Origin: Thermoplasmatales archaeon ex4484_36
GTDB taxonomy: Archaea; Thermoplasmatota; Penumbrarchaeia; Penumbrarchaeales; EX4484-36
NCBI GenBank assembly: GCA_002254765.1
Contig: NJDV01000027.1
Span: forward strand, 1 to 12,223
DNA length: 12,223 nucleotides
Direction of reading: 5' to 3'
The translations under genes were made by a program, and so were the position numbers. Below the pieces are notes generated by a model. The model saw only the letters and a list, made by a program, of their open reading frames with translations. It searched no databases and was not told the DNA's origin. Positions 1 to 11,107 of this stretch are shown one piece after another (position 1 is the stretch's first letter; each line of letters begins with the position of its first letter).

Positions 1-438
1 GGGAAGATAAGGGTACTTTTGATGGACGATCAGGAGGCTGTTCTTGACAGCACCTCCCTTCTCCTTAAAGAACTCGGCTTTGAGGTGGAGACTGCGAGGA
101 ACGGCCAGGAGGCCATAGAAAGGTACAAGAGGGCACTTGAGGAGGGGGAGGCTTTTCACGCTGTGGTCATGGACCTCACAGTCCCGGGTGGAATGGGGGG
201 GAAGGAGGCAATAAAAAGACTGAAGGAGATCGATCCCAACGTCAGGGCCATAGTCTACACGGGCTATTCCAACGACCCCATCCTCTCCAGCTTCAGAGAA
301 TACGGCTTCAGCGGAGCGCTGAAGAAGCCCTTCAAAGCCCTTCAAAATAGAGGAGCTTATAACGGAGATCAAAAGAGTCGCCGGGGAGTCGATGGGATAA
401 GATCCCCTAAGCGCCGGCAAGTAGCGAGGATTACCTGA
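1..438 (+). CDS. Receiver (CheY-like) domain, 5'-partial and frameshifted near its C-terminus
   Basis: This is a phosphoacceptor domain of two-component signalling. The reading frame is open to the first base and reads GKIRVLLMDDQ, the usual start of a receiver domain, so translation probably begins upstream; such a lead-in is common for the C-terminal receiver of a hybrid histidine kinase. The acidic pair is at nt 25-30 (DD), the phosphorylated Asp at nt 172-174 in VVMDLTVPGG, the switch Thr in VYTGYS, and the conserved Lys in LKKPF near nt 325. After KKPF the frame becomes atypical (KALQNRGAYNG...) and stops at 438. A 10-bp tandem duplication at 326-345 explains this. In the +1 frame after it, the sequence reads KPFKIEELITEIKRVAGESMG and stops at 398-400, which is a normal receiver alpha-5 ending. 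The gene is therefore frameshifted, although all catalytic positions lie before the lesion. Without the duplication it would end about 30 bp before the convergent gene instead of overlapping it. Confidence 0.85.
   Translation, partial: GKIRVLLMDDQEAVLDSTSLLLKELGFEVETARNGQEAIERYKRALEEGEAFHAVVMDLTVPGGMGGKEAIKRLKEIDPNVRAIVYTGYSNDPILSSFREYGFSGALKKPFKALQNRGAYNGDQKSRRGVDGIRSPKRRQVARIT
326..345 (+). repeat. 10-bp perfect tandem duplication inside the receiver gene
   Basis: The unit AGCCCTTCAA occurs twice back to back (326-335 and 336-345). Removing one copy joins the receiver to its expected C-terminal helix in one frame. The repeat is therefore most simply a slippage duplication, or an assembly or sequencing artefact. 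Confidence 0.9.
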
Positions 439-1360
439 GAAGCCCCGCCAGGACCTCCTCCGCTGCGCTGTGGGGGTCCAGCTCCCCGTCGGTTATCCTC
501 CTCACAAGCTCTCCCACGCTCTCCCGAAACCTCCCCTCGTCGTATATCATTTTCTTAAGGCGCCCCATCACAATCTCCACCAGCTCGGTCTCGTACCTCC
601 TTCGGCGCCTCCTCTCAAGCTCGCCTGTATCTTTCAGCATCTGAAAGTGATTCTCAACCTCTACCAGGAGCTCATCTACTCCCTCCCCCTCGGTGGCAGA
701 GGTGCAGACCACCGGAACCATCTTTTCGGATATCTCCATCATGCTTTTCAGCTCGTTTACAGTGCTGTCCGCCCCGGGGCGGTCGGACTTGTTCACAACG
801 AATATGTCAGCGATCTCCATAAGACCCGCTTTTATTGTCTGGATGAAATCCCCCAGCCCGGGCACCAGGACGACCACAGTCGTGTCCGCTATCCTGATGA
901 CGTCCACCTCAGCCTGTCCCACCCCCACGGTCTCAACGATGATAATGTCCTTCCCCGAGGCATCCAGTATCTCAACAGCGTCGTATACAGCCCCCGAGAG
1001 CCCCCCCAGCTTCCCCCGGGTACCCATGCTTCTTATGAAGACCTCACCATCGGATGCCAGAGGGTTCATTCTCACACGATCTCCCAGAAGGGCCCCTCCA
1101 GTGAAGGGGCTCGTTGGGTCCACGGCGACTATTCCCACACTTTTTCCCATCTCTCTGTACTTGAGCGCCATCTCACAGATGAGTGTGCTCTTTCCCACCC
1201 CCATAACCCCAGTGACACCAATGACGTGAGCCCTCCCCGCCCGGGGATGGATTATCTCCATGGCCTCCTTCAGACTCTCGGAGCCTGACTCAGCCAGAGA
1301 TATCAGCCTTGCAATGGCCCTTCTGTCGCCCCGAAGGGCTCTCTCCGCTAGCTCTCTCAT
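431..1360 (-). CDS. meaB: MeaB/ArgK-family P-loop GTPase, chaperone of the B12-dependent mutase
   Basis: This is a G3E-class GTPase that gates adenosylcobalamin delivery to, and protects, acyl-CoA mutases. At 309 residues it is close to family length. Visible motifs are the P-loop G51-V-M-G-V-G-K57-S58, the MeaB switch I signature DPTSP...[10 protein letters not shown] (81-98), switch [14 protein letters not shown] (143-154), the NKSD guanine specificity motif (190-193) and an SAT triplet (about 221). The usual MeaB P-loop is GxPGAGKS; the proline is replaced here (VMGVGKS), though GxxxxGKS is intact. A run of six arginines precedes the C-terminal helical dimerisation region. The start codon overlaps the stop of the mutase small subunit by four bases (ATGA on the minus strand), which indicates translational coupling in one operon. 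It could also be called methylmalonyl Co-A mutase-associated GTPase; the function is secure from motifs plus context. Confidence 0.94.
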
Positions 1361-1752
1361 CTCTTCACGTTCCGTCTAATGTATTCAACAATCTCGTTAA
1401 GTGGGGTCCCCGGTCCGAAGACCTCATCCACCCCCGCCGCTTTCAGCTTTGGTATGTCCTCCGGGGGTATGATCCCGCCCCCTATCACCAATATGTCATC
1501 CACCCCCCTCTCCTTCAGCAGCCTGACCACCTCGGGGAAGAGAGGAAAGTGGGCCCCCGAGAGGGCGCTTAAGCCTATGACGTGGGCGTCCTCCTGTATC
1601 GCCGTCTCCACTATCATCTCCGGGGTCTGATGAAGCCCGGTGTATATCACCTCCATCCCCGCATCCCTCAGGGCTCTAGCCACCACCTTTGCCCCCCTGT
1701 CGTGTCCGTCAAGCCCCGGCTTTGCCACAAGCACCCTTATCTTTCTCTCCAC
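1357..1752 (-). CDS. Acyl-CoA mutase small subunit, B12-binding domain
   Basis: This is the cobalamin-binding subunit of a two-subunit adenosylcobalamin-dependent acyl-CoA mutase. At 131 residues it is a single Rossmann-like B12-binding domain. The sequence shows the base-off/His-on signature D15-G-H17-D-R-G20, where His17 is the expected lower ligand to cobalt. The S62-A-L64 motif and the glycine-rich GGG (91-93) pack around the nucleotide tail. It lies 9 bp after the large subunit and overlaps meaB by 4 bp, so stoichiometric production from one message is likely. It is often annotated as methylmalonyl-CoA mutase C-terminal domain (mcmA2) or isobutyryl-CoA mutase small subunit (icmB). The domain alone cannot tell substrates apart; the large subunit residues favour the isobutyryl type. 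Confidence 0.93.
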
Positions 1753-1761
1753 GATATCACC

Positions 1762-3438
1762 TCAGAATATTATGGGCTCCTTATACACTCCGAAGACCTC
1801 TCTCAGTACGTCTGTGGTCTCACCCAGCGTAGCGTAGCTCTTCACGCAATCTAAAATGTAGGGCATCAGGTTCTCATCCCCTTCCGCCGCCCTCTTCAGC
1901 CTACTTAGGCTCTCCCTCACCTTGGAGGAGTCCCTCCTCTCCTTAAGCCTTCTCAAGCGCTCTATCTGCCTCCTCTCTCCCTCCTCATCCACCCTCAGGA
2001 TAGGAATGTCTATCTCCTCATCCATGACATAGCGGTTGACCCCCACGATCACCCTCTCTCCCCTCTCCACCTCCTGCTGATACCTGTAGGCGCTCTCTGC
2101 GATCTCCCTTTGGAAGAAGCCCTTTTCAATAGCAGGGATAACCCCACCGAGCTCCTCTATCCTGTCAAAGTACCTCTGCGCCTCCTCCTCCATCCTCTCG
2201 GTGAGCCACTCCACATAGTAGGAGCCTCCCAGCGGATCCACAGTGTCGGTCACGCCGCTCTCGTAGGCAATGATCTGCTGGGTCCGGAGGGCTATCCTCA
2301 CCGCCTTCTCCGAGGGGAGGGCTAAGGCCTCATCCAGTGAGTTCGTGTGAAGGGATTGAGTCCCTCCCAGCACCGCCGCCAGGGCCTGCAGCGTCACCCT
2401 TATCACGTTTATCTCCGGCTGCTGGGCGGTCAGGCTACAGCCTGCAGTCTGCGTGTGAAAGCGCATCCAGAGCGATCTCTCCTTCTTCGCACCAAGCTCC
2501 TTCATACCCCGGGCCCAGAGCCTTCTCGCGGCCCTAAACTTGGCTATCTCCTCAAAGAAATTGTTGTGAGCGTTGAAGAAGAAGCTCAGGCGCGGGGCGA
2601 ACTTGTCGATATCGAGGCCCCTTGAGATGGCAGCCTTCACGTATTCAAAGCCGTCCGCCAGGGTGAAGGCCAGCTCCTGCACGGCGGTAGCCCCCGCCTC
2701 CCTTATGTGGTATCCGCTTATGCTTATGGTGTTCCACTTCGGCACGTACTTCATGCCATACTCTATTGTGTCCACAATAAGCCTCATGCTGGGCTCCGGG
2801 GGGAAGATGTAGGATTTCTGGGCAATGTACTCCTTGAGTATGTCGTTCTGTATGGTGCCCCCCAGCTTCTCCTTGGGTATCCCCCTCTTCTCCGCCGCCG
2901 CGATGTACATGGCCCAGATGATGGCTGCGGGGCCGTTTATGGTCATAGATGTGGTTATTTTATCCACCGGTATGTCCTTAAACAGGATCTCCATATCCTC
3001 TAAGGAGGAGACGGCAACCCCGCACTTTCCGAACTCTCCTTTAGCCATGGGGTGGTCGGTGTCGTAGCCGTAAAGGGTGGGGTAATCAAAAGCAACGCTG
3101 AGGCCCGTCTCCCCGTGGGCTAGAAGGTACTTGAACCTCTCGTTGGTCTCCTCAGCGGTGCCGAAGCCGGAGAACTGTCTGAAGGTCCAGAGCCTACCCC
3201 GGTACATGGTGGCGTGTATCCCTCTTGTGAAGGGATACTCCCCGGGGAAGCCTATGTCCTCGCTGTAGTCAAGATCCTCTATGTCAAGGGGCGTGTAGAG
3301 CCTTTTCACCTCGATCCCGGAGAGGGTCCTGAAGCTCTCGGCTCTCTCGGGCCTCTTCTTCAACCACTCCTTCACCCTCTCCTGGTTCCATCTCCTCTCC
3401 CGCTCCCTGATACTCTCAAGCTCTTTCCGGTCATACAT
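1762..3438 (-). CDS. B12-dependent acyl-CoA mutase large subunit, isobutyryl-CoA mutase type by active-site residues
   Basis: This is the substrate-binding TIM-barrel subunit of a radical carbon-skeleton mutase, and it would usually be annotated methylmalonyl-CoA mutase. It has 558 residues, full length for separate large subunits. Recognisable blocks are [19 protein letters not shown] (64-82), [13 protein letters not shown] (87-99), [15 protein letters not shown] (194-208), [12 protein letters not shown] (239-250, with His244), [15 protein letters not shown] (326-340) and [15 protein letters not shown] (358-372). Numbering happens to match the Propionibacterium enzyme. There methylmalonyl-CoA mutases carry Tyr89 and Arg207, the latter binding the substrate carboxylate; this protein has Phe89 and Gln207, as described for isobutyryl-CoA mutases. 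Butyryl-CoA/isobutyryl-CoA interconversion, or a relative such as pivalyl/isovaleryl-CoA, is therefore more likely than succinyl/methylmalonyl. It is preceded 13 bp upstream by the adenosyltransferase gene and followed by the small subunit. Confidence 0.93.
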
Positions 3439-3451
3439 GTCCTCACCACCT

Positions 3452-3985
3452 TCAGAAGTCTATTCCTCTTCTGGCAAGCACACCCTTCTGGAAGGGGTGC
3501 TTCACCTCCACCATCTCCGTCACCAGGTCCCCCTTCTCGATGATCTCCTCCCGGGCGTATCGCCCGGTGAGAATCAACTCAACGTGAGGGGGCTTCATCT
3601 CTATAAGCTCTATCACGTCCCGGAGAGACAAAAGGCCGTAGTCCACCGCCACGTTCACCTCATCTAAGATCACCACATCCCACTCCCCCCCCTTGATTAT
3701 CTCCTGAGCCCTCCGAAGTCCCTCCCTTGCCAGCCTCACATCCACCTCCTCGGGGTCACCCTTCCTGACGAACTCGTCCCTTCCGAACTGCTCTATCCTG
3801 AAGTTCTCCATCTCCTCAGTTGCCGCCACCTCACCGTATCTGCGCCCCTTCATGAACTGGATCATATAGACCTTAAGGCCCTGGCCGGCGGCCCTAAGCC
3901 CCAGTCCCACCGCCGCCGTGGTCTTGCCCTTCCCCTCCCCCGTGTACACCTGGACAAAGCCCTTCTTAAGTCTCATGTGGGACAT
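3452..3985 (-). CDS. cobO: Cob(I)yrinic acid a,c-diamide / corrinoid adenosyltransferase (CobA/BtuR family)
   Basis: This enzyme transfers the adenosyl group of ATP to cob(I)alamin, making the cofactor used by the mutase downstream. At 177 residues it is typical of the CobA/CobO family and differs from the PduO type. An N-terminal P-loop variant [10 protein letters not shown] lies at 16-25, followed by the [13 protein letters not shown] and IQFMKG segments, then [16 protein letters not shown] (about 104-119) and ELILTGRYA, all hallmark family blocks. The first ATG (3985) gives MSHMRLKKG; the second ATG (3976) is an equally good start. The gene leads the mutase operon, with 13 bp to the next gene, so cofactor adenosylation is likely co-regulated with its use. 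A TATA-like element lies about 20-30 bases before the two possible starts. Confidence 0.94.
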
Positions 3986-7844: not shown

Positions 7845-8087
7845 ATGGCTGAGAAGAAGGGCAAGAAGAAGTCCAAGTATACAACCGTTTCCATCCCCAC
7901 CCCCCTCTACAAGAAGATAAAGAAGAGGATCGAGGAGACTGGCTTCACATCAGTCTCCGACTACGTCACCTACGTTCTCAGGGAGGTCCTGGCAAGCCTA
8001 GAAGAGGAGGAGAAGGAGGAGGCCTTCACGGAAGAAGAGGAGGAGAAAGTGAAAGAGAGACTCAGGGCCCTTGGATATCTGGATTGA
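7845..8087 (+). CDS. Ribbon-helix-helix regulator heading the sulfate-activation operon
   Basis: This is an 80-residue DNA-binding protein. A lysine-rich N-terminus (MAEKKGKKKSK) precedes the RHH unit: beta strand YTTVSIP (12-18), helix LYKKIKKRIEETG (21-33), then the turn and second helix TSVSDYVTYVLREVL (35-49). The rest is an acidic, probably helical segment (52-71) ending in KERLRALGYLD. The short tail LRALGY (73-78) recurs at the C-terminus of the next protein in the operon. GGAGGTG at 7833-7839 sits five bases before the ATG. It lies 9 bp before the cysD-like gene, which implies one message. Autorepression through the 10-bp repeats at its promoter is the natural hypothesis; the signal it might sense is unknown. 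Confidence 0.85.
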   Translation: MAEKKGKKKSKYTTVSIPTPLYKKIKKRIEETGFTSVSDYVTYVLREVLASLEEEEKEEAFTEEEEEKVKERLRALGYLD

Positions 8088-8096
8088 GGTGATGGC

Positions 8097-8897
8097 ATGG
8101 ACCATCTGGATGAACTTGAGAGCAGAAGCATATACATAATCAGGGAGGCCTACAGGCAGTTCAAGGACATAGCTGCCCTCTGGAGCATAGGGAAGGACTC
8201 CACCACCCTGGTCTGGCTCATAAGAAAGGCCTTCTATGGGAAGGTGCCCTTCCCCGTAGTTCATATAGACACCTCCTACAAGTTCAAGGAGATCTACGCC
8301 TTCAGAGAAAAGTGGGCCAAGGAGTGGAACCTGAAGCTCATTGTGGGAAGGAACGAGGAGGCCATAAAAGCTGGCATGGGACCGGAGAGGGGAAAGCTTC
8401 AGTGCTGCACCGCCCTGAAAACCGATGCACTTAAGATGACAATAGACAAGTACGGCTTCAAGGCACTTCTTCTGGGAATAAGGAGGGACGAGCACGGTAT
8501 CAGGGCCAAGGAGAGGTACTTCTCACCGCGGAACAGGGAATTCCAGTGGAACTATAAAGACCAGCCTCCGGAGCTCTGGGACCAGTACAAGACGAAGCAG
8601 GAGGGTGAGGAGCACATAAGGGTCCACCCGCTCCTTCACTGGACGGAGCTTGACATATGGAACTACATCAAAAGGGAGGGCATCCCCGTGGTGGAGCTCT
8701 ACTTCGCCAAAGGGGGCAGGAGATACAGAAGTATCGGCTGCGAGCCCTGCTGCAGCCCCATACCCTCGGATGCAGACACCATTGACAAAATCGTCGAGGA
8801 GCTCAAAACCACAAAGATTTCGGAGAGGTCAGGAAGGGCCCAGGACAAGGAGAGGGCCTACATGATGCAGAAGCTTAGGGCGTTGGGGTATATGTGA
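8097..8897 (+). CDS. cysD: CysD-like ATP sulfurylase subunit (PP-loop) with an APS-reductase-type cysteine set
   Basis: This is the adenylyltransferase subunit expected to form adenosine 5'-phosphosulfate from ATP and sulfate together with the CysN GTPase two genes on. The PP-loop is SIGKDS (30-35). CysD hallmarks are RRDEHGIRAKER (129-140), the PELWDQY block (158-164), RVHPLLHWTELDIWNYI (175-191) and SERSGRAQDKE (242-252). At 266 residues it is shorter than the roughly 300-residue E. coli form, lacking an insertion before the RYRS motif. Unusual are C103-C104 and C215-E-P-C218-C219. SIGCEPC matches the iron-sulfur motif of assimilatory APS reductases, and CC lies at the equivalent position after the nucleotide-binding core. 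The reductase catalytic ECGLH tail is absent; the protein ends in KLRALGYM. The cluster is an inference. The start at 8097 follows GAGGTGA at close spacing; the ATG at 8092 is out of frame. Confidence 0.9.
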   Translation: MDHLDELESRSIYIIREAYRQFKDIAALWSIGKDSTTLVWLIRKAFYGKVPFPVVHIDTSYKFKEIYAFREKWAKEWNLKLIVGRNEEAIKAGMGPERGKLQCCTALKTDALKMTIDKYGFKALLLGIRRDEHGIRAKERYFSPRNREFQWNYKDQPPELWDQYKTKQEGEEHIRVHPLLHWTELDIWNYIKREGIPVVELYFAKGGRRYRSIGCEPCCSPIPSDADTIDKIVEELKTTKISERSGRAQDKERAYMMQKLRALGYM

Positions 8898-8907
8898 GGG
8901 GTCTCAG

Positions 8908-9132
8908 ATGAATTTCAGAGAAACCCGCCTCAGGAGCCTAGTGAAGACCCTCTCCTGGAGGGCGCTGGCCACCCTCACCACCATGGGGCTCGTCTACCTC
9001 TTCACCGGTGAGGTCATAATCGCCGTGGAGGTGGGCGCCCTGGAGGTTGTTGCCAAGCTCCTTCTGTTCTTCCTCCACGAGAGGGTGTGGAACCTGATAT
9101 CGTGGGGAAAGAAAGTGGCTGAAGGAGAGTGA
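8908..9132 (+). CDS. DUF2061 small membrane protein
   Basis: This is a 74-residue protein with two hydrophobic segments, about 18-33 (WRALATLTTMGLVYLF) and 36-55. Family features visible are the N-terminal RSLVKTLSWR (9-18), the small-residue threonine stretch, TGEVIIAVEVGALEVVAK, and the C-terminal HERVWNLISWG (57-67), which is the DUF2061 signature. It sits in the inner membrane with short cytoplasmic ends. The biochemical role is unknown. Its position between the two ATP sulfurylase subunits, 10 bp after one and 6 bp before the other, suggests that it serves sulfate activation or uptake. The ATG at 8908 is the only sensible start, with a weak GAGGGG upstream. Confidence 0.85.
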   Translation: MNFRETRLRSLVKTLSWRALATLTTMGLVYLFTGEVIIAVEVGALEVVAKLLLFFLHERVWNLISWGKKVAEGE

Positions 9133-9138
9133 ATAAAG

Positions 9139-10383
9139 ATGGAGAGAGAGCATCTCAAACTGGTGATAGTCGGGCATGTAGACCACGGAAAATCCACCCT
9201 CATAGGGAGACTCTTCTACGACACTGACAGCCTCCCCCGGGAGAAGCTGGAGGAGGTCAGGCAGATATGCGAGGCTCTGGGAAGAGAGCTTGAATTCGCC
9301 TTCGTCATGGACCACCTGGAGGAGGAGCGAAGCCAGGGGATAACGATAGACACCGCCCAAACATTCTTTAAGACCGCAAAAAGGGACTACGTGATCATAG
9401 ATGCCCCCGGGCACAGAGAGTTCACCAAGAACATGATAACGGGAGCCTCCCAGGCGGAGGCTGCCATACTCATAGTAGACGTCTCCGAGGGGGTGCAGGA
9501 GCAGACCCGCCGTCACGCCTACATACTGAGCATGCTGGGCCTAAAACAGGTTATTGTGGTCCTCAACAAGATGGACCTTGTTGGGTACTCCGAGGAGGTC
9601 TTCGAGAAGGTGAGGGGACATACACTGGATTTCCTCAAACGCATTGGGATCAACCCCACCTACGTGATACCCATCTCCGCAAGGGAGGGGGACAACGTCG
9701 CCTCAAGGTCGGAGAGGATGCCCTGGTACACGGGCCCCACAATCCTTGAGGCCTTAGACACCTTCAAGAAGACCGAGAGGAGGGATGGGGGCCCCTTAAG
9801 GTTCGCCGTCCAGGACGTCTACAACATAGAGGGAAAGAGAATCATAGTGGGAAGGGTGGAGGCGGGGACCTTAAGGAGGGGGGATGAGATAGTGATTCTC
9901 CCCACGGGAGAGAGGACACGGGTGAAGAGCATAGAGGAGTTCATGCGTGAAGGGGTTGAGGAGGCACCCCCGGGGAAGAGCACAGGGATCACCCTAGAGG
10001 ACAAGCTCTTCGTGGACAGGGGGCAGATCCTCTGCAGGCTTGAGGAGGAGACACCGAAGATGGTAAGTGAGGTGAAGGGGAGCATCTTCTGGATGAGCTC
10101 CGAGCCCCTGCAGGTGGGGGAGAGCGTGATCTTCAAATGCTCCACCCAGGAGGCACCCTGCAGGGTTGAGGCCATAGAGAGGAGGATAGACTCCTCCACC
10201 TTAGAGGTGATCGAGGAGAGCTCCAGCAGGCTTGAGAATAGGGAGGTGGGGGAGGTCACCCTCTCCTTCGCCTCCCCTGTCATCGTGGAGGATTTCAATG
10301 TGACCCCGGAGCTCGGAAGATTTGTGATAGAGAAGGAGGGCAACATCTCCGGGGGAGGGATAATAACGAGACTTGAGGGGTGA
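9139..10383 (+). CDS. cysN: Sulfate adenylyltransferase large subunit, CysN GTPase
   Basis: This is an EF-Tu/EF-1A-like GTPase whose hydrolysis drives APS formation by CysD. The G motifs are complete: GHVDHGKST (12-20), the switch I segment [13 protein letters not shown] (62-74), DAPGH (88-92), NKMD (143-146) and ISAREG further on. [15 protein letters not shown] is a characteristic CysN sequence. Two beta-barrel domains follow, and the protein ends soon after a final [19 protein letters not shown] stretch. At 414 residues it is shorter than E. coli CysN (about 475) and has no fused CysC APS kinase domain. GGAG lies 11 bases before the ATG. The gene is 6 bp after the DUF2061 gene, and its stop lies four bases before the GTG of the next gene. 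The assignment as CysN, not elongation factor, is strong because of its operon partner. Confidence 0.93.
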
Positions 10384-10387
10384 TCGT

Positions 10388-11107
10388 GTGATAACAGTGA
10401 TAGCGATAGATGCCCTGGAGTACACCCTGGTTGAGGAGTTCAACATGAGGAATTTAAAGCAGGATTACTACGGAAGAACGGACATAAGCGAGTTCTCAGA
10501 GCCCAGGACCATGGTCCTTTGGAGCTCCTTCATGACGGGGGAGAACAGGGAGGCCGAGATACTGGCCAAGGGGGATAAGGAGATGTGGAACACGAGAATC
10601 CCCCACGAGGAGACCTTCTTCTCCCACTTCAAGAATCCCTTTGTTCTGGACCTCCCGGGGTACAATTACGATCTGGAGCAGCACCGCAGGGAGAGGGAGC
10701 TTCTGAAGGAGTTCTTCGAAGAGAAGGACGAGGAGCGCAAGAGAGAGGTTAGGAGGAAGTACAACGAGAACGCCTTCGCCCACCACAGGAGGGTGAAGGA
10801 GAGGTTTTTTGAAGCCTTGGAGGGGGATTACGATTTCGTCCTGGGCTACTTCAGCGTGGCGGACGTGATAGGTCACCTGAACTTCGGAAACAGATCCCTC
10901 ATGAAGATGATATACAGGGACCTGGACGATATAGTCTCCCGGGTGGAGGGCAAGAAAATAGTCCTCTCCGACCACGGCATGAAGGCCGTTGGGGCCTTCG
11001 GGGACCACTCCGATTACGGCTTCTGGAGCACCAACTTCCGAGACCTGGGGAGGCCCAGGATAACGGACTTCAAAAGGATTGTACTTCAGGAGGCCCTAGG
11101 CGAATAG
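10388..11107 (+). CDS. Alkaline phosphatase superfamily (phosphodiesterase/sulfatase-like) hydrolase
   Basis: This is a two-metal hydrolase of phosphate or sulfate esters, 239 residues from the GTG. With that start the metal-ligand pattern is complete: Asp8 in VIAIDAL, Thr41 in the PRTMVLWSSFMTGE nucleophile region, Asp159 and His163 in SVADVIGHL, Asp195-His196 in VLSDHGM, and His207 in GDHSDYG. There is no signal peptide, so it is cytoplasmic. A charged helical insert (about 97-137) lies between the nucleophile and the second metal site. GAGGGGTGA overlaps the cysN stop and serves the GTG at 10388; an in-frame TTG at 10373 inside cysN is less likely. Placement at the end of the sulfate-activation operon suggests that a nucleotide or sulfonucleotide by-product, or a sulfated metabolite, is the substrate; that is inference. 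The 3' end overlaps the convergent mntP fragment by 12 bp. Confidence 0.82.
   Translation: MITVIAIDALEYTLVEEFNMRNLKQDYYGRTDISEFSEPRTMVLWSSFMTGENREAEILAKGDKEMWNTRIPHEETFFSHFKNPFVLDLPGYNYDLEQHRRERELLKEFFEEKDEERKREVRRKYNENAFAHHRRVKERFFEALEGDYDFVLGYFSVADVIGHLNFGNRSLMKMIYRDLDDIVSRVEGKKIVLSDHGMKAVGAFGDHSDYGFWSTNFRDLGRPRITDFKRIVLQEALGE

Follow-up and report, generated by a model that had tools for sequence, protein, structure and literature searches.

A CysD-type ATP sulfurylase subunit with the cysteine motif of iron–sulfur APS reductases

CysD is usually regarded as a plain PP-loop enzyme. In Thermoplasmatales archaeon ex4484_36, a stretch of 12,223 nucleotides (contig NJDV01000027.1 of assembly GCA_002254765.1; hereafter the window) encodes a CysD that shares the CC…CxxC cluster motif of the assimilatory adenosine 5′-phosphosulfate (APS) reductases, which hold a [4Fe-4S] cluster. 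The question raised by this locus is what an iron–sulfur motif would be doing in a protein that, judged from its sequence, would act with CysN as a GTP-driven ATP sulfurylase and form APS from ATP and sulfate. The answer that we favour, with moderate confidence, is that this sulfurylase subunit has an inherited [4Fe-4S] cluster near its sulfate site, and that the cluster was lost in a second form of the protein, termed here the loop form. CysD and iron–sulfur APS reductases were already known; the CysD with an iron–sulfur motif is the new part, and no iron–sulfur CysD was found in the titles or abstract openings of the open-licence literature searched.

The window gene and its cysteine motif

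The gene and its motifs are located as follows, with residues numbered as in the window protein:
8097..8897, + strand: CysD, no-loop form with the iron–sulfur motif (266 residues, ATG start)
8184..8201, + strand: PP-loop SIGKDS, residues 30–35
8403..8408, + strand: C103-C104, the first cysteine pair (KLQCCTALKT)
8418..8420, + strand: K108, five residues past C103
8739..8753, + strand: SIGCEPCC with the second pair, C215 and C218, and a fifth cysteine, C219 (codons read in the DNA: C215 at 8739–8741, C218-C219 at 8748–8753)
8823..8846, + strand: ERSGRAQD, residues 243–250

The original prediction placed five cysteines on a CysD scaffold, and this was borne out by the translated open reading frame, by the codons and by the NCBIfam model NF003587 (CysD, sulfate adenylyltransferase subunit 2), which the protein passes with 358.5 bits against a cut-off of 195. 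These five are the complete set, with no cysteine after residue 219. The match to PF01507 scores 150.9 bits, and 1zun_A is the top match in the PDB both by sequence and by fold. The source genome is 54% complete and lies in 111 contigs; among the named loci the closest CysD belongs to a metagenome-assembled genome of a Thermoplasmata archaeon (L002, 93%).

To place the protein within its family, L205–L209 and P0001 were removed from 385 aligned CysD rows, giving 326 no-loop rows (320 distinct) and 51 loop-form rows. The no-loop set includes 239 rows from two nearest-neighbour protein searches, the best 120 of each; the window's own gene (L001 and L099) and a broken frame (L125) were excluded from the rows. 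Plasmid matches numbered 377 records, of which 13 were used, chosen among the matches listed (60 of 377), and nine phage records matched, each with less than 60% identity. Eighteen columns (30, 32–35, 129, 131, 132, 136, 138, 139, 178, 182, 184, 243, 244, 247 and 250) are invariant in every no-loop and loop-form row, among them S30, G32, K33, D34 and S35 of the PP-loop. This shared core suggests that the sulfurylase job is probably unchanged, and that both forms of CysD probably perform it.

Within the 326 no-loop rows, C103 and C215 are cysteine in 100%, C104 in 99.4% and C218 in 97.9%, and no other column reaches 95% cysteine (the mean content is 5.36 cysteines per protein). The corresponding shares among 37 representatives, selected at a cut of approximately 76% identity, are 100% for C103 and C215, 94.6% for C104 and 83.8% for C218. 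Because CysD is well conserved overall, the conservation of C218 is by itself unremarkable: in these representatives the columns conserved equally or better than C103, C104, C215 and C218 number 58, 92, 58 and 133 of 266, respectively. Counted over 81 locus rows, made up of the 80 loci of the genome scan and L001, the copy in the window, cysteine occupies position 103 in 81, 104 in 79, 215 in 81, 218 in 74 and 219 in 42. All four cysteines were present in each of the best 120 proteins nearest the window CysD, and equally in each of the best 120 from a search with the CysD of Ilyobacter polytropus. The hosts include archaea, Omnitrophota, Nitrospinota, Clostridia and Fusobacteria. The iron–sulfur-motif subfamily proposed from the single gene is thus real and large, and the idea that its cysteines are sporadic among homologues, a local oddity of this genome, was rejected by their conservation. 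The fifth cysteine fared differently and was dropped from the motif: C219 is cysteine in only 50.0% of the no-loop rows (59.5% of the representatives), the other locus rows having 37 threonines and two asparagines, and while 118 of the 120 nearest proteins keep it, the Ilyobacter set has threonine throughout, as do 16 of 16 rows of the reductase CysH.

Comparison with the APS reductases indicates where the four remaining cysteines might lie. In a profile alignment both pairs fall on the pairs of the APS reductase 7lhr, C103-C104 aligning with its ECC and SIGCEPCC with SIGCAPCT; the aligned cysteines are those which we take to hold the 7lhr cluster. A structural model of the window protein superposes on 2goy_A at 2.4 Å over 201 residues (model 6–252) and on 7lhs_B at 2.2 Å over 182 residues (model 6–223), with both pairs inside each span. 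The four motif cysteines are present in 15 of 16 CysH rows, which favours a common origin of the motif in CysD and CysH. K108 stands in the same column as a conserved CysH lysine, and this column is lysine in 326/326 no-loop, 41/51 loop-form and 16/16 CysH rows, the ten glutamines all belonging to actinobacterial-type loop forms. In the active site of APS reductases, the lysine after the CC pair sits near the sulfate of APS. From these alignments, the most likely role of C103, C104, C215 and C218 is to bind a [4Fe-4S] cluster at the site that serves this purpose in the assimilatory APS reductases; the putative cluster would adjoin K108 and the end of APS that carries the sulfate. By analogy, its likeliest job would be to shape the pocket and the charge around sulfate and APS, not to transfer electrons.

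The likeness to reductases stops at the C-terminus. The columns of R244 and R247 are common to CysD and CysH, after which the tails diverge; unlike the assimilatory reductases (2goy, 7lhr/7lhs), the window CysD has a CysN partner and lacks the ECGLH-type catalytic tail. The APS reductase model TIGR02055 gives 62.5 bits, far short of its cut-off of 235.3, and the window protein was rejected as a reductase. The earlier expectation that it would not reduce APS by the usual mechanism is supported by this result, by the missing tail and by hosts that have a separate reductase.

Related proteins widen the comparison. The source genome itself (G000) encodes a PRK13795-type fusion of 655 residues (contig C99, L225:776–2743), named hypothetical protein by NCBIfam; it shares the PAPS_reduct core and, read by eye from the translation, FCC and IGCWLCP pairs, and unlike CysD it has PUA and ferredoxin-like parts. 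Such cysteine pairs therefore extend beyond CysD and CysH. Another fusion (L108:793–2058) joins an APS/PAPS-reductase-like part containing CC, CEPC and ECGIH to an LpxD/acyltransferase-like part, and branches off first on the CysH side in the tree described below. Six PAPS_reduct-like proteins (L160, L161, L213, L214, L216 and L217) lack cysteines at the four sites, contain ERAGR and have CysD-like tails ending in (F/L)GYM; all but L160 and L161 are entirely cysteine-free.

The loop form and the direction of change

The two forms of CysD were compared by counting residues between Y202 and R209 (window numbering) in the 385 aligned rows. All four cysteines were found in 325 rows, each with 6–13 residues in this interval and none with the insert. 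Conversely, 51 rows (50 distinct) have 34–36 residues, carry no cysteine at 103 or 104 and retain just a single member of the C215/C218 pair; two further rows, L210 and L211, are fragments in which the second pair is absent. The full motif and the loop are thus mutually exclusive in this set. The proteins of E. coli and P. syringae (1zun_A) are loop forms with neither pair (HT and GCxPLT) and with a KKRQGYF-like C-terminal tail, in contrast to KLRALGYM in the window protein. For E. coli K-12 CysD the absence of both pairs had been predicted, and the sequence agrees: HT stands at 103/104 and GCWPLT at 214–219, so that C215 is the only shared cysteine.

Which cysteine survives differs among loop forms. 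Those of E. coli, rhizobia, Vibrio, Phocaeicola, myxobacteria and some Thermoplasmatota keep C215 (GCxPL or V), whereas those of Streptomyces, Nonomuraea and other Thermoplasmatota keep C218 instead (GDMxC). Different single relics are expected if the ancestor carried both C215 and C218. According to our model, the cluster was probably present in the ancestor that CysD shares with CysH, and in the lineage leading to the E. coli-type and actinobacterial CysDs it would have been lost while a loop of approximately 30 residues arose just before the second pair.

Phylogenetic trees agree with this loss, the direction being unproven from the sequences. The first tree contained 72 rows (cut of approximately 76% identity) and was built without the five motif columns or the insert, CysH serving as outgroup. 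Here the loop form is one clade (100/100), nested in a group (100/98) with iron–sulfur-motif CysDs of Nitrospina type, of Ilyobacter and of two Myxococcota. The same group was recovered at 100/99 in a second tree, which dropped nine rows as long or redundant (L160, L161, E. coli CysH, L163, L132, L131, L136, L084 and L048_H) and added P0138, P0160, P0190, P0205 and P0214 from the Ilyobacter search; in this tree six no-loop rows without C218 group together (86/90).

A number of observations weigh against an inherited cluster in a working sulfurylase. An approximately unbiased (AU) test did not reject a single clade that unites the iron–sulfur-motif and partial CysDs and excludes the loop form (p 0.357 and 0.364), which leaves the root unsettled, so that the direction of evolution rests on parsimony with CysH. 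L160 and L161, with none of the four cysteines, branch beside CysD. Seven of the no-loop rows lack C218, two of them also C104, and none has gained a loop, which shows that the four-cysteine motif is dispensable. R130 is replaced by alanine in 114 no-loop rows. The window protein falls below two narrower CysD models, TIGR02039 (265.4 against 396.6) and NF009214 (279.9 against 413), the best-matching stretch of both stopping at residue 205, right before the site of the missing loop. The only CysD matched in the PDB (1zun_A) is a loop form. Finally, the cluster of plant APS reductase is described as critical and its role as unclear (PMC9426629), and APS reductases without a cluster exist (PMC2275785). 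The link between sulfurylase and reductase lineages that had been suggested for this gene fits shared ancestry, with the root left unsettled by the AU test.

Alternative readings of the motif

The main rival to a role in shaping the pocket is an oxygen or redox switch, in which an intact cluster would keep the sulfurylase active and its oxidation would stop costly sulfate activation. Many hosts of the motif form belong to groups known as anaerobic, the loop forms compared include proteins of E. coli, rhizobia and Streptomyces, and the position beside the active site, as judged from superposition and profile alignment, would permit switching. That position suits a pocket role just as well, and 23 loci of Nitrospina, Nitrospinaceae, Nitrospinae and Nitrospinota (L058–L081 without L065) retain all four cysteines, which speaks against a strictly anaerobic role of the cluster; N. 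gracilis is called aerobic (PMC3578206). We consider the switch improbable, if worth keeping in mind.

A further rival has the motif gained separately in CysD and CysH, or moved from CysH to CysD. The root left open by the AU test and the position of L160 and L161 speak for this; the equal spacing within each pair, the common K108 and the different relic cysteines of the two loop-form groups count against it, and we regard such an origin as distinctly unlikely. It is doubtful, to a still greater degree, that the four cysteines bind zinc or have a structural role without iron. CC and CxxC pairs are able to bind zinc, and of the 326 no-loop rows five are one cysteine short of the four and two are two short. 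Against this, the columns coincide with the cysteine pairs of APS reductases, and the loop form loses three of the four cysteines while its core residues stay, as would fit the loss of a cofactor.

The operon and the possible fate of APS

CysD is the second gene in a same-strand run whose other members are:
7845..8087, + strand: ribbon-helix-helix (RHH)-like protein of 80 residues ending in LRALGYLD, upstream of CysD (RHH_1, E 0.019, below cut-off)
8908..9132, + strand: DUF2061 small predicted membrane protein (PF09834, 70.1 bits)
9139..10383, + strand: CysN, the sulfurylase GTPase subunit (TIGR02034, 370.1 bits, cut-off 336.1)
10373..11107, + strand: alkaline-phosphatase-superfamily protein, type I phosphodiesterase-like, after CysN (PF01663, 23.0 bits, at cut-off)

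Gene order was compared over 82 loci, namely the window and 80 scan loci, minus L048, L068 and L070 (lost through overlapping gene calls), plus L090, L091, L093 and L096, L093 being a duplicate of L002; neighbours were called naively as longest open reading frames and named from one scanned member per cluster. CysN is present in 77 of the 82 loci and, where downstream, lies immediately after CysD in 55/78. A TauE/SafE-type permease sits between the two in 12 loci; in the window the DUF2061 protein does so, accompanied in L012 and L015 by a HIT-type protein (scanned in L015). The gene immediately after CysN is phosphodiesterase-like in 20 of 78 loci and 2Fe-2S-ferredoxin-like in 16, these of Nitrospina type. 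Flanking genes include sulfatases (15 loci), larger phosphodiesterases (26), sugar epimerases (11), polysaccharide flippases (7) and UDP-sugar dehydrogenases (6).

The RHH-like gene is a same-strand neighbour of CysD in 28 of the 82 loci, and its relative in L003 passes the RHH_1 cut-off (23.1/20.5). The two proteins end alike, in LRALGYLD and LRALGYM. A tail of this type is terminal in 44 of 47 RHH-like and 60 of 82 CysD proteins, in five of 18 sulfatase-cluster and one of 28 large phosphodiesterase-cluster proteins, and in no other called neighbour (50 of 767 non-CysD frames overall). It is possibly a docking tail common to the RHH-like protein and CysD. Elsewhere in the window, on the minus strand, 431–3985 encodes a MeaB-like GTPase and two methylmalonyl-CoA mutase-like subunits, as read by eye from translations, and a cobalamin adenosyltransferase at 3452–3985, confirmed by PF02572.

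Consumers of APS were tallied by hand from tables for 50 of 80 host genomes, counting matches of at least 40 bits; most of the genomes are drafts, so that the counts overstate the true absence of CysH and APS kinase. An APS kinase match was found in 14 of the 50, with a frame as long as a CysN–kinase fusion in four, and CysD is the lone PAPS_reduct protein in 34 (G093, with two 37-bit pieces in one frame, was scored as having a second). Both an APS kinase and a further PAPS_reduct protein of at least 40 bits were missing from 31 of the 50; in two of these 31 (L025, L049) CysD lies on a single-record chromosome. Sulfotransferase families are sparse, PF13469 occurring in five and PF00685 in four of the 50.

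Relatives of the same order point to sulfation. Four of them (G003, G004, G008 and G009) gave no CysD match over the cut-off, and in place of CysD/CysN have the RHH-like gene with Sat, a DHH protein, APS kinase and a sulfotransferase-like protein. The set of five is complete in L240 (G004), the one locus scanned for families, and in L241 (G009), mostly by eye; L242 (G003) and L243 (G008) hold parts of the cluster, cut by contig ends. The company that the RHH-like gene keeps in these relatives suggests a role in sulfation for the window operon as well, and the phosphodiesterase-like protein at 10373–11107 is a candidate user of the APS. A bolder version, to which we give little credence, holds that in many archaea and DPANN the iron–sulfur CysD/CysN would feed sulfation directly from APS, the alkaline-phosphatase-superfamily protein after CysN acting as the transferase. 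Sulfate would then reach a glycan or lipid of the cell surface with no need for APS kinase, 3′-phosphoadenosine 5′-phosphosulfate (PAPS) or a classical sulfotransferase, the cluster helping to hold APS for hand-over. The 31 genomes without kinase or second PAPS_reduct protein, the few sulfotransferases and the clusters of the relatives with no CysD match over the cut-off support this version; against it, the phosphodiesterase-like gene follows CysN in just 20 of 78 loci, and a search of 57 relatives recovered it from G000 and G001 and gave a weak partial match in G054, with no match in the CysD-bearing G002, G006 and G007.

That CysD might both make and reduce APS, with C219 or another thiol replacing the missing tail cysteine, is extremely improbable: the frequency of C219 among the nearest proteins and the 31 genomes in which no kinase or second PAPS_reduct protein reached 40 bits are outweighed by the absence of ECGLH, the TIGR02055 score, the inconstancy of C219 and its replacement by threonine in CysH, and the separate reductase genes beside or near CysD in Ilyobacter (neighbours annotated as APS kinase and as an AprA-like reductase with a ferredoxin-family protein) and in two Myxococcota loci (an ECGLH-bearing CysH upstream of CysD), which argue that CysD is not the reductase in these hosts.

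Should an iron–sulfur cluster be present in a large share of CysDs, aerobic assays may have missed their activity. The distinction between the iron–sulfur form and the loop form provides a simple sequence marker, and the iron–sulfur form would offer a natural comparison for studying the function of the APS reductase cluster, being a relative with the same site and no reduction step. The split between the two forms suggests that a cluster was present in the ancestor of both sulfate activation by CysD and APS reduction.
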